NCBI GenBank assembly: GCA_958295715.1
Contig: OY282371.1
Span: 2,239,697 to 2,303,696 of the forward strand
Direction of reading: 5' to 3'
Source of the DNA: an uncultured Dehalococcoidia bacterium
GTDB lineage: Bacteria; Chloroflexota; Dehalococcoidia; Lucifugimonadales; GCA-2712585
DNA length: 64,000 nt
Position 1 is the first letter of the stretch, and each line of letters begins with the position of its first letter. The notes under the pieces are model-generated. The model made no database searches, had not been told where the DNA came from, and saw only the letters and a program-made list of their open reading frames with translations. Shown here piece after piece: positions 4,607 to 29,353 of this stretch. The position numbers and the translations under genes were made by a program.

Positions 4607-6130
4607 CTACTCCAGCCAGCGGGGGCGGTACTGGAGGGCCTCGGCCAGGTGGTTGACGGCTATGTCTTCATCGCCGGCCAAGTCTGCGATGGTCCTGGAG
4701 AGTTTGAGGACCCGGTGAAAGGCCCTGGCGCTGAGGTTCATCCGGCTCATGGCCGCTTGCAGCACGCCTTGGGCGTCCTTCCCCACCTGGCAGAACTCCC
4801 AAACCTCCGCCGGCCCCATCTCGGAGTTGGCCACCTGGGGGCCGCCTTGGAAGCGGGCGCGCTGGACGTCTCTGGCCGCCTCCACCCGCTTCTGCACGGT
4901 GGCGGAGTCCTCGCCGTGGGTCGAGTCCATAAGCTCCTCGTACTCCACCGCCGGGACCTCCACGAACATGTCCATGCGGTCCATGAGGGGGCCGCTGATG
5001 CGGCGCTGGTACTTGGAGACCATGGACGGGGGGCACCGGCACTCCTTCTTGGGGTCGCCGTGGAAGCCGCAGGGACAGGGGTTCATGGCGCAGACCAGCA
5101 TGAAGTTGCAGGGAAAGGTGACGTTCCACTGGGCGCGGCTGATGGTCACCACGTGGTCTTCCAGGGGCTGGCGCAGGGCCTCTAGCGCGTTGTGCCCGAA
5201 CTCCGGCAGTTCGTCTAGAAAGAGGACGCCCCGGTGGGCCAGGGTTATCTCGCCGGGCCTGGGGACTCGCCCGCCGCCCACCAGTCCCACGTGGGAGGTG
5301 GTGTAGTGAGGGGAGCGAAAGGGCCTCTGCCGTATGAGGGGCTTGTCGGAGGGAAGGAGGCCGGAGACGCTGTAGATCTTGGTGGTCTCCAACGCCTCTT
5401 GGACGGACATGGCGGGCAGAATGGAGGGGAGGGTCCGGGCCAGCAGGGTCTTGCCGCTGCCCGGAGGCCCGGTCATCAGCAGGTTATGGCCGCCAGCGGC
5501 GGCTATCTCCATGGCCCGCTTGACGTGCTCCTGCCCCTTGACGTGGGATATGTCGGGGCCATTGTGGGGGAACTCCTGGGGCGAGAGGGAAAGGAGGTCC
5601 GACGGGTGGGGCTCAATGACTGACTCGCCGTGGAGGTGGGACACCAGACCGGCCAGGGAGGGCACGGGTCTAACGGTGACCCCTTCCACCAGGGCGCCCT
5701 CCTGGGCGTTCTCCCGTGGAACAAAGACCTGGGAGAACCCCTCGTCCTTGGCCATGGCCACCATGGACAGTATCCCCCTGGTGTGGCGCACCGCCCCATC
5801 CAAGGACAGTTCGCCCAGGAAAACCGACGACTCCGGCGGCTCCGGTATCTGGCCGGCGCTGCTGAGGACCGCGACGGCTATGGGCAGGTCGTAGCCCGGC
5901 CCCGCCTTCCGCAGGTCGGCGGGGGCGAGGCTGACGGTGACGCGGCGCATGGGGAACTCTTGGCCGGAGTTCCTGATGGCGGCCCGCACCCGCTCGCGGG
6001 ACTCCTGGACCGCCGTGTCCGGCAGCCCCACGATGGTGAAGGAGGGGAGGCCGGGGGCAATGTCCACCTCCACCTCAACGACGCGCCCCTCAAGGCCGAT
6101 GACGGCGCACGTCTTGGACTTGGCGAGCAT
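4607..6130 (-). CDS. comM: YifB/ComM-family Mg-chelatase-like AAA+ ATPase
   Basis: A 507-aa protein with the ComM/YifB architecture. The N-terminal Lon-substrate-like domain (LPSFTIVGLPDTAVQESRER, residues about 28-47) contains SLAPADLRKAGPGYDLPIA. The AAA+ Mg-chelatase core has Walker A TGPPGSGKT near 220 and Walker B VLFLDELPEF near 300; CPCGFHGDPKKECRCPP is the family cysteine cluster, and a C-terminal helical domain follows (SARAFHRVLKLSRTIADL). ComM is a branch-migration helicase that helps integrate donor DNA during natural transformation (known from Vibrio); other members are of unknown role. ATG start at 6130, 27 bases after the stop of the first GYD gene, so probably transcribed with it. 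Confidence 0.93.
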   Translation of the reverse strand: MLAKSKTCAVIGLEGRVVEVEVDIAPGLPSFTIVGLPDTAVQESRERVRAAIRNSGQEFPMRRVTVSLAPADLRKAGPGYDLPIAVAVLSSAGQIPEPPESSVFLGELSLDGAVRHTRGILSMVAMAKDEGFSQVFVPRENAQEGALVEGVTVRPVPSLAGLVSHLHGESVIEPHPSDLLSLSPQEFPHNGPDISHVKGQEHVKRAMEIAAAGGHNLLMTGPPGSGKTLLARTLPSILPAMSVQEALETTKIYSVSGLLPSDKPLIRQRPFRSPHYTTSHVGLVGGGRVPRPGEITLAHRGVLFLDELPEFGHNALEALRQPLEDHVVTISRAQWNVTFPCNFMLVCAMNPCPCGFHGDPKKECRCPPSMVSKYQRRISGPLMDRMDMFVEVPAVEYEELMDSTHGEDSATVQKRVEAARDVQRARFQGGPQVANSEMGPAEVWEFCQVGKDAQGVLQAAMSRMNLSARAFHRVLKLSRTIADLAGDEDIAVNHLAEALQYRPRWLE

Positions 6131-21743: not shown

Positions 21744-21825
21744 CGGGCGCAGCCACGGCGTCTAATCCGGCTAGTCCGGCGTTAGGCGCGGCGGCTTCAG
21801 GATCCCCCCTCAAAGGAGGCGCAAA

Positions 21826-22293
21826 ATGGCGGCAAACGTTGGTCAGATGGCCCCCGACTTCAGCCTGCCGGACCAGGCCGGGGAGCAGGTGTCCCTCAGC
21901 CAGTTCAGCGGCGAAAAGACGGCGGTCCTCTCCTTTCACGTATTCGACTTCACCGGCGGTTGAAGGAACCAGGTCTCCTCGTTCAGCCTGGCCAACGCCG
22001 GGTTCGAGGAGCGGGACGCCCAGGTCTTGGGCGTCAGCTGCGACAGTCAACACTCCCACCGCGCATGGGCCGAATCCATGGGCGGCGTCAGCTATCCCCT
22101 GCTGGCCGACTTCCACCCCCACGGCGAGGTGAGCCGGGCCTACGGCCTCCTGAACGAGGCCAACGGCGCGCCTCGCCGGGCCATCGTCATAGTGGATAAG
22201 GGTGGAACGGTGCGGTTCAGGCGCGAGTACCCGCCGGGATCGCTTCCAACCCCTGAGGAGATACTGGCGGAGTTGGACGGGATAGCCGGGTAG
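21826..22293 (+). CDS. Peroxiredoxin-like protein with in-frame TGA at the peroxidatic cysteine (candidate selenoprotein)
   Basis: Reading through the TGA at 21961-21963 gives 155 aa, the size of a BCP-type peroxiredoxin. ATG at 21826 is preceded by AAAGGAGG. The N-terminus GQMAPDFSLPDQAGEQVSLS is classical AhpC/TSA. The TGA is codon 46 and falls in FHVFDFTGG-U-RNQVSSF, exactly where peroxiredoxins carry the peroxidatic Cys of PxxxTxxC. The frame continues intact with QVLGVSCDSQHSHRAW and YPLLADFHPHGEVSRAYG to a normal TAG. A strong hairpin follows the TGA. Known bacterial peroxiredoxin-like selenoproteins have Sec at this position. A nonsense mutation or sequencing error of a TGC/TGT codon remains possible. 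Conventional annotation would show two short fragments or a pseudogene. Confidence 0.8.
21975..22011 (+). promoter_or_regulatory. Candidate SECIS-like hairpin downstream of the in-frame TGA
   Basis: CTCCTCG (21975-21981) pairs perfectly with CGAGGAG (22005-22011). Inside, CCTGGC (21987-21992) pairs with GCCGGG (21997-22002) around a CAAC loop that sits 30 bases after the TGA, within the usual bacterial SECIS distance. The loop lacks the G found early in the E. coli apical loop. An AGGTCT motif, as in the E. coli fdhF loop, lies at 21971-21976 but closer to the TGA than usual. Confidence 0.5.
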
Positions 22294-22311: not shown

Positions 22312-23199
22312 TTGGAGGAACCCTTCGAAGAGAGCCGCGCAGACCCTAAGGGCGCGCCGTCTATAGAGCAAGAGGCGCCGAGGGCCTGTTTCCAAGGGGG
22401 TGACTTGGCCCTGTTGATAGACCGCAAGGGCCGCCGCTACCTGCTCACCCTCAAGGAGGGCGGCGCCTTTCACACCCACATGGGCTATCTGGAGCACGCC
22501 GGAATCATCGGGCGGCAGGAGGGCGAGTGGTTTTACACCAACAGCGGCCACCGGTTCTTGGGCCTGAAGCCCACGCTGTCGGACTACGTGCTGGAGATGG
22601 ACCGGGTGACGCAGGTCATCTATCCCAAGGACATTGGGGCCATCCTGATGATGGGCGACGTCTTTCCCGGCGCGCGGGTGGTGGAGGGGGGCTTCGGCTC
22701 CGGGGCGTTGACCCTGGCCATGCTGCGGGTCATAGGCGCGGAGGGCAGCCTGACGTCATATGAGATTCGGAAGGGCCAGGCGGATAAGGCCCTGCGCAAC
22801 ATCCGGCCCCTGATGCCGCCGGGGGCAGCGCTGACCATAAAGGAGGCGGACATCTACGAGGGCATCCAGGAGAGGGCTGTGGACCGGGTGACGCTGGACG
22901 TCCCGGAGCCGTGGCGCGTGGTGGCCTCGGCGTCTGAAGCCCTGGCGCCGGGGGGCGTCTTCCTGAGCTTCCTCCCGACGGCCTTGCAGGTGCACCGCCT
23001 GACTGAGGAGTTGAACGCCCAGGGATGCTTCCAACTAATCGAGACCGCGGAGTTGATGCTTAGGCCCTGGCACGTGACGGAGCAGAGCCTGCGGCCCGTC
23101 CACCGGATGGTGGCCCACACGGGGTTCATCACCACGGCGCGGCGGTGCCTGCCTCGTCCCGTGGGGCGGCCCAAGGCAAACCCTGAGGAGGTGAGTTGA
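22312..23199 (+). CDS. trmI: tRNA (adenine-58-N1)-methyltransferase TrmI-like
   Basis: A 295-aa SAM-dependent methyltransferase that would methylate A58 in the tRNA T-loop. The N-terminal small domain contains FQGGDLALLIDRKGRRYLLT and FHTHMGYLEHAGIIG; LKPTLSDYVLEM and QVIYPKDIGAILMMGDVFPG are diagnostic for TrmI. SAM motif I reads VVEGGFGSGALTLAML (usually EAGTGSG), and motif IV is TLDVPEPWRV. TTG at 22312 is taken as start though no clear ribosome binding site precedes it; a TTG at 22406 behind AAGGGGG is the alternative but would remove conserved residues. Its stop overlaps the next start (TGATG). Confidence 0.88.
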   Translation: MEEPFEESRADPKGAPSIEQEAPRACFQGGDLALLIDRKGRRYLLTLKEGGAFHTHMGYLEHAGIIGRQEGEWFYTNSGHRFLGLKPTLSDYVLEMDRVTQVIYPKDIGAILMMGDVFPGARVVEGGFGSGALTLAMLRVIGAEGSLTSYEIRKGQADKALRNIRPLMPPGAALTIKEADIYEGIQERAVDRVTLDVPEPWRVVASASEALAPGGVFLSFLPTALQVHRLTEELNAQGCFQLIETAELMLRPWHVTEQSLRPVHRMVAHTGFITTARRCLPRPVGRPKANPEEVS

Positions 23200-27504: not shown

Positions 27505-27661
27505 CCAGCGCATATCCTCGCCCGCTCCCCAAGGCGAACTAATCGATAACTCAAGCGGCCCAGAGTCCGGGTTCGTGGGAGACTAAAGCCCTTCAGCCCT
27601 TCGCTGCGTTGTGGGATAATGGGCGCCGGAACGTCGCTTGACGGGGAAGGGTTTCGACACG

Positions 27662-29353
27662 GTGACAACTCAACGGGAAGCGTCCAGGGAGCCGGCGGCC
27701 ACCGACTTCATCAGAAGCCTGGTGCAGGCCGACTCGGAGTCCGGCAAGTTCGGGGGGCGAGTGGCCACGCGGTTCCCGCCGGAGCCTAACGGCTACCTGC
27801 ATATCGGTCACGCCAAGTCGGCCCTGCTCAACTTCAGCATCGCCGCGGAGAACGGCGGCCCCTGCCACCTGCGCTTCGACGACACCAACCCCACCAGGGA
27901 GGAGGAGGAGTACGTCCGCGCCATTCAGGAGGACCTCCGGTGGCTGGGGCTGGACTGGGGCGACCACCTCTACTACGCCTCCGACTACTTCGACCAGCTT
28001 TACGACTACGCGGAGCGGCTCATCAGGAAGGGCAGGGCCTACGTCTGCGGCCTGAGCCAGGAGGAGGCGCGGCGATACAGGGGCGACTACACGGAGCCGG
28101 GCAGGCCCAGCCCTTTCAGGGATAGGCCTGTGGAGGAGAACCTGGACCTGTTCCGGCGCATGAGGGCGGGGGAATTTGAGAACGGCTCCATGTCGCTGAG
28201 GGCCAAGATTGACATGACCTCCGGCAACCTGAATCTCAGGGACCCGGTGCTCTACCGGATACTTAACGTCCCCCACCAGCGCACCGGCGACCGGTGGCCC
28301 ATCTATCCCACCTACGACTTCGCCCACGGGCAATCGGACTCCATAGAGGGGATAACCCATTCCATCTGCACCCTGGAGTTCGAAGACCATCGCCCACTCT
28401 ACGATTGGCTCATTGACGAGTTGGAGATACCCCATCCCCAGCAGATAGAGTTCGCCCGCCTCAACCTGACCCACACGGTGATGAGCAAGCGGAAGCTGTT
28501 GGAGTTGGTGGAAAGCGGCGCCGTGACGGGGTGGGACGACCCCCGGATGCCGACCCTGTCGGCCATGCGGCGGCGGGGCTTCACTCCCGCGGCCCTGCGG
28601 GTCTTCTGCGAGCGCATAGGCGTGGCCAGGCGGGGCAACACCGTTGAAATGGCCATGCTTGAGCACTGCGTGCGGGAGGACCTCAACCGAACGGCCCGCC
28701 GGGTTATGGGGGTCCTCAACCCCCTCCGCGTGGTCATTGAGAACTACCCGGAGGGCCTGGTGGAAGAAATGGAGGCCATAAACAACCCGGAGGACCCGTC
28801 CATGGGTTCCCGCAAGGTTCCCTTCTCAAAAGAGCTTTACATAGAGCGGGAGGACTTTCAGGAGGAGCCGCCGCCAAAGTTCTACCGCCTGGCCCCGGGC
28901 CGGGAGGTGCGCCTTCGCTACGCCTATCTGATACGGTGCGTCGGCGTGGAGAAGGACCCGGAGACGGGGGAGGTGACGGCCTTGCGATGCGTCTACGACC
29001 CGGAGAGCCGGGGCGGCCAGGCCCCCGATGGCCGCAGGGTGCGGGGAACCATCCACTGGGTGTCGGCCCCCCATTCCATTGGCGCCGAGGCCCGCCTCTA
29101 CGACCACCTGTTCACCGCCGAAAAGCCGGAGGACACCGCCGGCGTCAACCCCAACTCCCTGGTCGTCGTGACGTCGTGCCGCCTGGAGCCCAGCCTGGCC
29201 GACGCCGAGCCGGGAACGCCGTACCAGTTCGAGCGCATAGGCTACTTCTGCGTAGACGCCGCCGATTCCTTCCCGGGCGCCCCGGTGTTCAACCGCACGG
29301 TGGCCCTGCGCGACTCGTGGGGCAGGCGGCGACGTCAGGTTCCAAAAGGTTGA
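27662..29353 (+). CDS. glnS: Glutaminyl-tRNA synthetase
   Basis: Class I synthetase charging tRNA-Gln, about 563 aa. The HIGH motif is in [19 protein letters not shown] near residue 36, and the KMSKS-equivalent is [10 protein letters not shown] near 270. [15 protein letters not shown] and [20 protein letters not shown] distinguish GlnRS from GluRS; the C-terminal beta-barrel anticodon-binding region ([15 protein letters not shown] onward) is the GlnRS type. GTG at 27662 is preferred over the TTG at 27638 because GAAGGG precedes it. GATAAT at 27615-27620 is a likely -10. Confidence 0.94.

Follow-up and report, generated by a model that had tools for sequence, protein, structure and literature searches.

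Selenocysteine-containing (Sec) peroxiredoxins with a TxxU active site are already known from marine metagenomes: 43 sequences were found in the Sargasso Sea set (PMC1088965) and 253 in GOS (PMC2398784), and the family (Prx, PF00578, TxxU) is listed among selenoproteins (PMC13188914). The gene described here lies in a 64,000-nucleotide stretch of DNA from an uncultured Dehalococcoidia bacterium, hereafter the window. It resembles the metagenomic TxxU proteins in its AhpC-TSA fold, in the placement of Sec at the peroxidatic position, in its downstream stem-loop and in having widespread Cys homologues. It differs in being placed here, in the context of whole genomes, in a Chloroflexota clade of the AhpE type, which the metagenomic sets may already include; moreover, most members of this clade lack the Pro of PxxxTxxU, and their hairpin loop is usually without the G of the bacterial SECIS (bSECIS) model. 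The 1-Cys peroxiredoxin AhpE of Mycobacterium tuberculosis (Rv2238c) offers the nearest solved fold (TM 0.92-0.95, 35-36% identity), is of equal length and aligns its catalytic residue with codon 46 of the window gene, but has Cys instead of Sec and Pro at the position of Val39. PrxU of the Eubacterium acidaminophilum type (NCBIfam NF040737) is also a Sec peroxiredoxin and shares the superfamily; however, the window protein scores 61.3 bits where 270 are required, which rules out a PrxU in the NCBIfam sense, and the PrxU model is about 80 positions longer. In the papers retrieved on selenoproteins together with SAR202, Chloroflexota or Dehalococcoidia, the gene family was absent from titles and abstracts.

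We conclude, with a probability of roughly 95%, that the window gene encodes an AhpE-type peroxiredoxin with one selenocysteine, its UGA codon 46 being decoded by SelA, SelB, SelD and tRNA-Sec through a downstream hairpin. The gene occupies positions 21826-22293 of the + strand and, with UGA46 taken as Sec, encodes 155 residues. An ATG at 21826 opens a frame of 45 codons, followed by the in-frame TGA (21961-21963, + strand), 109 further codons and a TAG stop at 22291-22293, the same counts as had been given in the preliminary description. The strong ribosome binding site noted there is likewise present, as direct reading of the sequence places the Shine-Dalgarno-like AAAGGAGG at 21812-21819 (+ strand), 5' of the ATG. 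Ordinary neighbouring genes, for example those at 22312-23199 and 27638-29353, end in TGA; genome-wide recoding is therefore rejected, as previously argued. When all six frames of the window were screened by composition, the peroxiredoxin TGA was the sole in-frame TGA unlike an antisense shadow frame; the screen yielded no other credible in-frame TGA, the remaining matches resembling such shadow frames. Purifying selection acts on the gene both before and after the UGA, dN being well below dS: compared with orthologue L034, dN/dS values are 0.21/1.11 upstream and 0.15/1.0 downstream of the UGA.

Translated through the UGA, the protein yields a Pfam AhpC-TSA match (residues 5-131, E 7.6e-36) of 123.2 bits, far above the curated cut-off of 26, which places it in the peroxiredoxin superfamily. 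Among solved structures, M. tuberculosis AhpE is the best sequence match (E 3.7e-28), and codon 46 aligns with its catalytic Cys, as expected from the earlier proposal that the TGA sits at the peroxidatic cysteine. An AlphaFold model with Cys replacing Sec has a pLDDT of 96.4, and the first 12 PDB fold matches are all M. tuberculosis AhpE, so that fold and closest relative both point to the AhpE type. Across 65 aligned sequences Thr43, residue 46, Asp95, Pro98 and Arg118 are invariant. Of the PxxxT/SxxC(U) motif with its distal Arg, the TxxU active site (Thr43-Gly-Gly-Sec46, 21952-21963, + strand) and Arg118 are present, and Pro39 is not: this residue is Val in the window protein, Pro in just 12 of the 65 sequences and Val, Ile, Leu or Thr in the other 53. 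By homology, Sec46 would be the peroxidatic residue, acting with Thr43 and Arg118. A conserved resolving Cys, which AhpE-type enzymes lack, is also missing here, the next best Cys column (72) holding Cys in 31 of the 65; an external thiol is therefore the likely reductant. At the neighbouring codon 47 (21964-21966), the window protein has Arg (AGG), alone among the 65 aligned sequences, 51 of which have Thr.

Conservation of the UGA was assessed in two sets, 98 related genomes and 65 distinct aligned orthologous sequences. A close homologue with an in-frame TGA occurs in 57 of the 98 genomes (counted by hand), and homologues with E <1e-30 are found elsewhere in the phylum as well, some containing a TGA and others an uninterrupted frame. 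Relatives in named records come from Chloroflexota, Dehalococcoidia and one SAR202 cluster bacterium record, which suggests that the window belongs to a SAR202-type lineage. Codon 46 of the 65 orthologues is TGA in 61 and TGT or TGC in the other 4, and nothing else; the UGA is thus aligned with Cys in homologues, as expected of a bacterial selenoprotein, and the check for unrelated residues at this position, suggested in the preliminary description, found none. Given that TGA differs from TGC or TGT by one base, the gene might in principle be a normal Cys peroxiredoxin in which a pseudogene mutation or a sequencing or assembly error appears as TGA. Because 60 further distinct orthologues share this TGA, chance, sequencing error and pseudogene formation are rejected, and the purifying selection on both gene halves and a hairpin selected in TGA versions only (see below) argue in the same direction. 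We consider this explanation extremely improbable.

The window's own genome (2.40 Mb, 2 contigs) contains all of the Sec-decoding genes whose presence had been proposed as a check: a tRNA-Sec with anticodon TCA (UCA) at 73.7 bits, selA at 541 bits, selB at 349 bits and selD at 368 bits. Such a complement of tRNA-Sec, SelA, SelB and SelD is what a selenoprotein gene would need in its genome. SelD itself has an in-frame UGA (NCAG-U-ASK), and further TGA-bearing oxidoreductases include a second peroxiredoxin (TPG-U), two TlpA-like proteins (W-U-GC and W-U-PAC), a thioredoxin-like protein (YC-U-INC) and a SelW-like protein (CVP-U). Counting the window peroxiredoxin and SelD, the genome encodes at least 7 candidate selenoproteins. 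The six other candidate loci (SelD, the YC-U-INC thioredoxin-like, W-U-PAC and W-U-GC TlpA-like and SelW-like CVP-U proteins, and the TPG-U peroxiredoxin) lie on contig G000:C1 at 70120-71043, 93716, 201628, 1483691, 1652579 and 1816693, with TGA at redox positions. Of the 98 relatives, 89 gave a selB match and 83 a selA match under the thresholds applied. A UGA homologue is present in 56 of 91 genomes with selA or selB versus 1 of 7 with neither, a modest co-occurrence (Fisher p 0.02) among genomes that are related and hence not independent. One TGA peroxiredoxin, L043, comes from a genome (G031) that yielded neither selA nor selB and whose assembly is 74% complete.

A suppressor tRNA that places a canonical residue (Cys or Trp) at the UGA would offer another route through the codon. 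Some bacteria do charge unusual UGA-reading tRNAs, and the evidence for Sec, from the read-through frame to the conserved hairpin, is computational. We nevertheless regard suppression as very unlikely, as neighbouring genes use UGA as their ordinary stop, the genome has tRNA-Sec, SelA, SelB and a SelD that itself bears Sec, and the hairpin directly after the UGA is lost together with the switch to Cys. The sel genes, the column restricted to UGA and Cys, and the hairpin jointly support the selenocysteine peroxiredoxin put forward in the preliminary description, and we infer that Sec is inserted and that SelB recognises the hairpin.

Under the selenocysteine reading, SelD would supply selenophosphate and SelA would turn the seryl group on tRNA-Sec(UCA) into selenocysteine. 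SelB would then deliver this tRNA to UGA codon 46, because the hairpin immediately 3' marks the UGA, and translation would run on to the TAG. In the resulting enzyme, presumed to be a peroxidase, the selenolate of Sec46, positioned by Thr43 and Arg118, would attack the peroxide, and the selenenic acid would presumably be reduced by an external thiol system. In bacterial Sec decoding SelB competes with release factor, an established mechanism. It follows that the UGA could double as a regulated stop, giving a 45-residue peptide without selenium and the full enzyme with it. We consider such regulation unlikely here; it would in any case supplement Sec insertion and not replace it.

The preliminary description had noted a 37-base hairpin after the TGA. 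A stable hairpin, the proposed SECIS element, does directly follow the UGA, at 21975-22011 (+ strand, 37 nt), and consists of a 7-bp basal stem (CUCCUCG/CGAGGAG), an 8-bp upper stem and the apical loop CAAC (21993-21996), which begins 29 nt past the UGA; the median spacing in orthologues is 26 nt. Its energy of -23.2 kcal/mol corresponds to a z of -2.67 against dinucleotide shuffles and of about -2.5 against synonymous-codon shuffles. The hairpin was tested on related sequences by folding the 51 nt after the UGA and comparing them with shuffles in which each gene retained its encoded protein and its codon usage. For the 61 TGA orthologues, mean z is -2.1, -2.4 and -2.3 at offsets of 0, 1 and 2 codons from the UGA and near 0 across most of the gene, overlapping windows to about +17 codons sharing the signal. 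The signal is absent from the Cys orthologues (z about +0.5, -1.6, -0.5 and +0.4). Applied gene by gene, the same synonymous null gave no significant folding in four further TGA-bearing genes from this genome; the test therefore has power only over many orthologues.

The basal stem is paired in 79% of cells, compared with 52.7 +/- 2.2% when codons are shuffled synonymously (58.8% at most in 300 shuffles), 43-58% in slid registers and 29% in Cys orthologues. Base pairs are exchanged from G-C to A-U and from C-G to U-A, and AGC/AGT, which account for about 40% of the Ser codons in the rest of these genes, are absent among the listed Ser codons of the basal stem. The 7-bp basal stem is thus kept through compensating synonymous choices. 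The upper stem also persists across orthologues, its register drifting.

Published criteria for bSECIS elements are a loop of 3-9 nt, a spacing of 16-37 nt and an MFE <= -7.5 kcal/mol (Fig. 2 legend, PMC13188914), and the window hairpin falls within these ranges (4 nt, 29 nt and -23.2 kcal/mol). The model also asks for a G in the apical loop (PMC13188914). Neither of the first two positions of the loop CAAC is a G, consistent with the earlier remark that the loop departs in part from the E. coli SECIS consensus, and the G is missing in most orthologues too. Using our own implementation of the model (not bSECISearch), no alternative hairpin loop after the window UGA passed every criterion, and passing hairpins were little enriched in orthologues (16 of 61) relative to background windows (66 of 366). 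A subset of bacterial SECIS elements is known to fail the bSECIS model (PMC13188914). Folds of the four other TGA genes of the genome were read as having G-containing loops (GTT twice); the peroxiredoxin hairpin may therefore be exceptional, or the two uppermost pairs of its stem could open and expose G21991. Tentatively, and with more doubt than confidence, we suggest a distinct class of bacterial SECIS kept across a Chloroflexota order, with a conserved 7-bp basal stem, a drifting upper stem and a loop usually without G, in which SelB would recognise another feature. The approximately 60 aligned hairpins constitute a set for a direct test of the bacterial SECIS G rule.

A protein tree was built with residue 46 masked (a quick tree with SH-aLRT support only). 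The Cys clade, three sequences from one genus, is nested within the Sec clade (starred branch, 96), and therefore represents Sec-to-Cys reversion. In this genus (L087, L088, L089 and L090, from genomes G061, G028, G076 and G087) a catalytic TGT replaces TGA and the hairpin is absent, while selA and selB are still present. We regard the genus as a clear natural case of reversion with hairpin loss.

TxxU peroxiredoxins being established, what is less ordinary here is an AhpE-type clade that spans an order and is anchored in genomes, the loss of Pro39 in most members, the reversion to Cys and a SECIS hairpin outside the published model. This work adds such a genome-anchored Sec peroxiredoxin clade, along with a natural Sec-to-Cys reversion in a genus that keeps selA and selB. 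Because standard gene callers end at the UGA, annotations of dozens of genomes would tend to show the enzyme as a fragment; the group affected is a widespread uncultured order, with one homologue in a SAR202 cluster record.

Two observations concern individual genomes. In chromosomes labelled Candidatus Entotheonella (L024 and L025, match 5001-5438), a copy nested in the Chloroflexota clade is found along with selB, reflecting either horizontal transfer between phyla or mislabelled records. Finally, a Cys peroxiredoxin paralogue (FTGVC or FTSGC) adjoins the Sec gene in some genomes (L022:4529, L023:4586 and L073).
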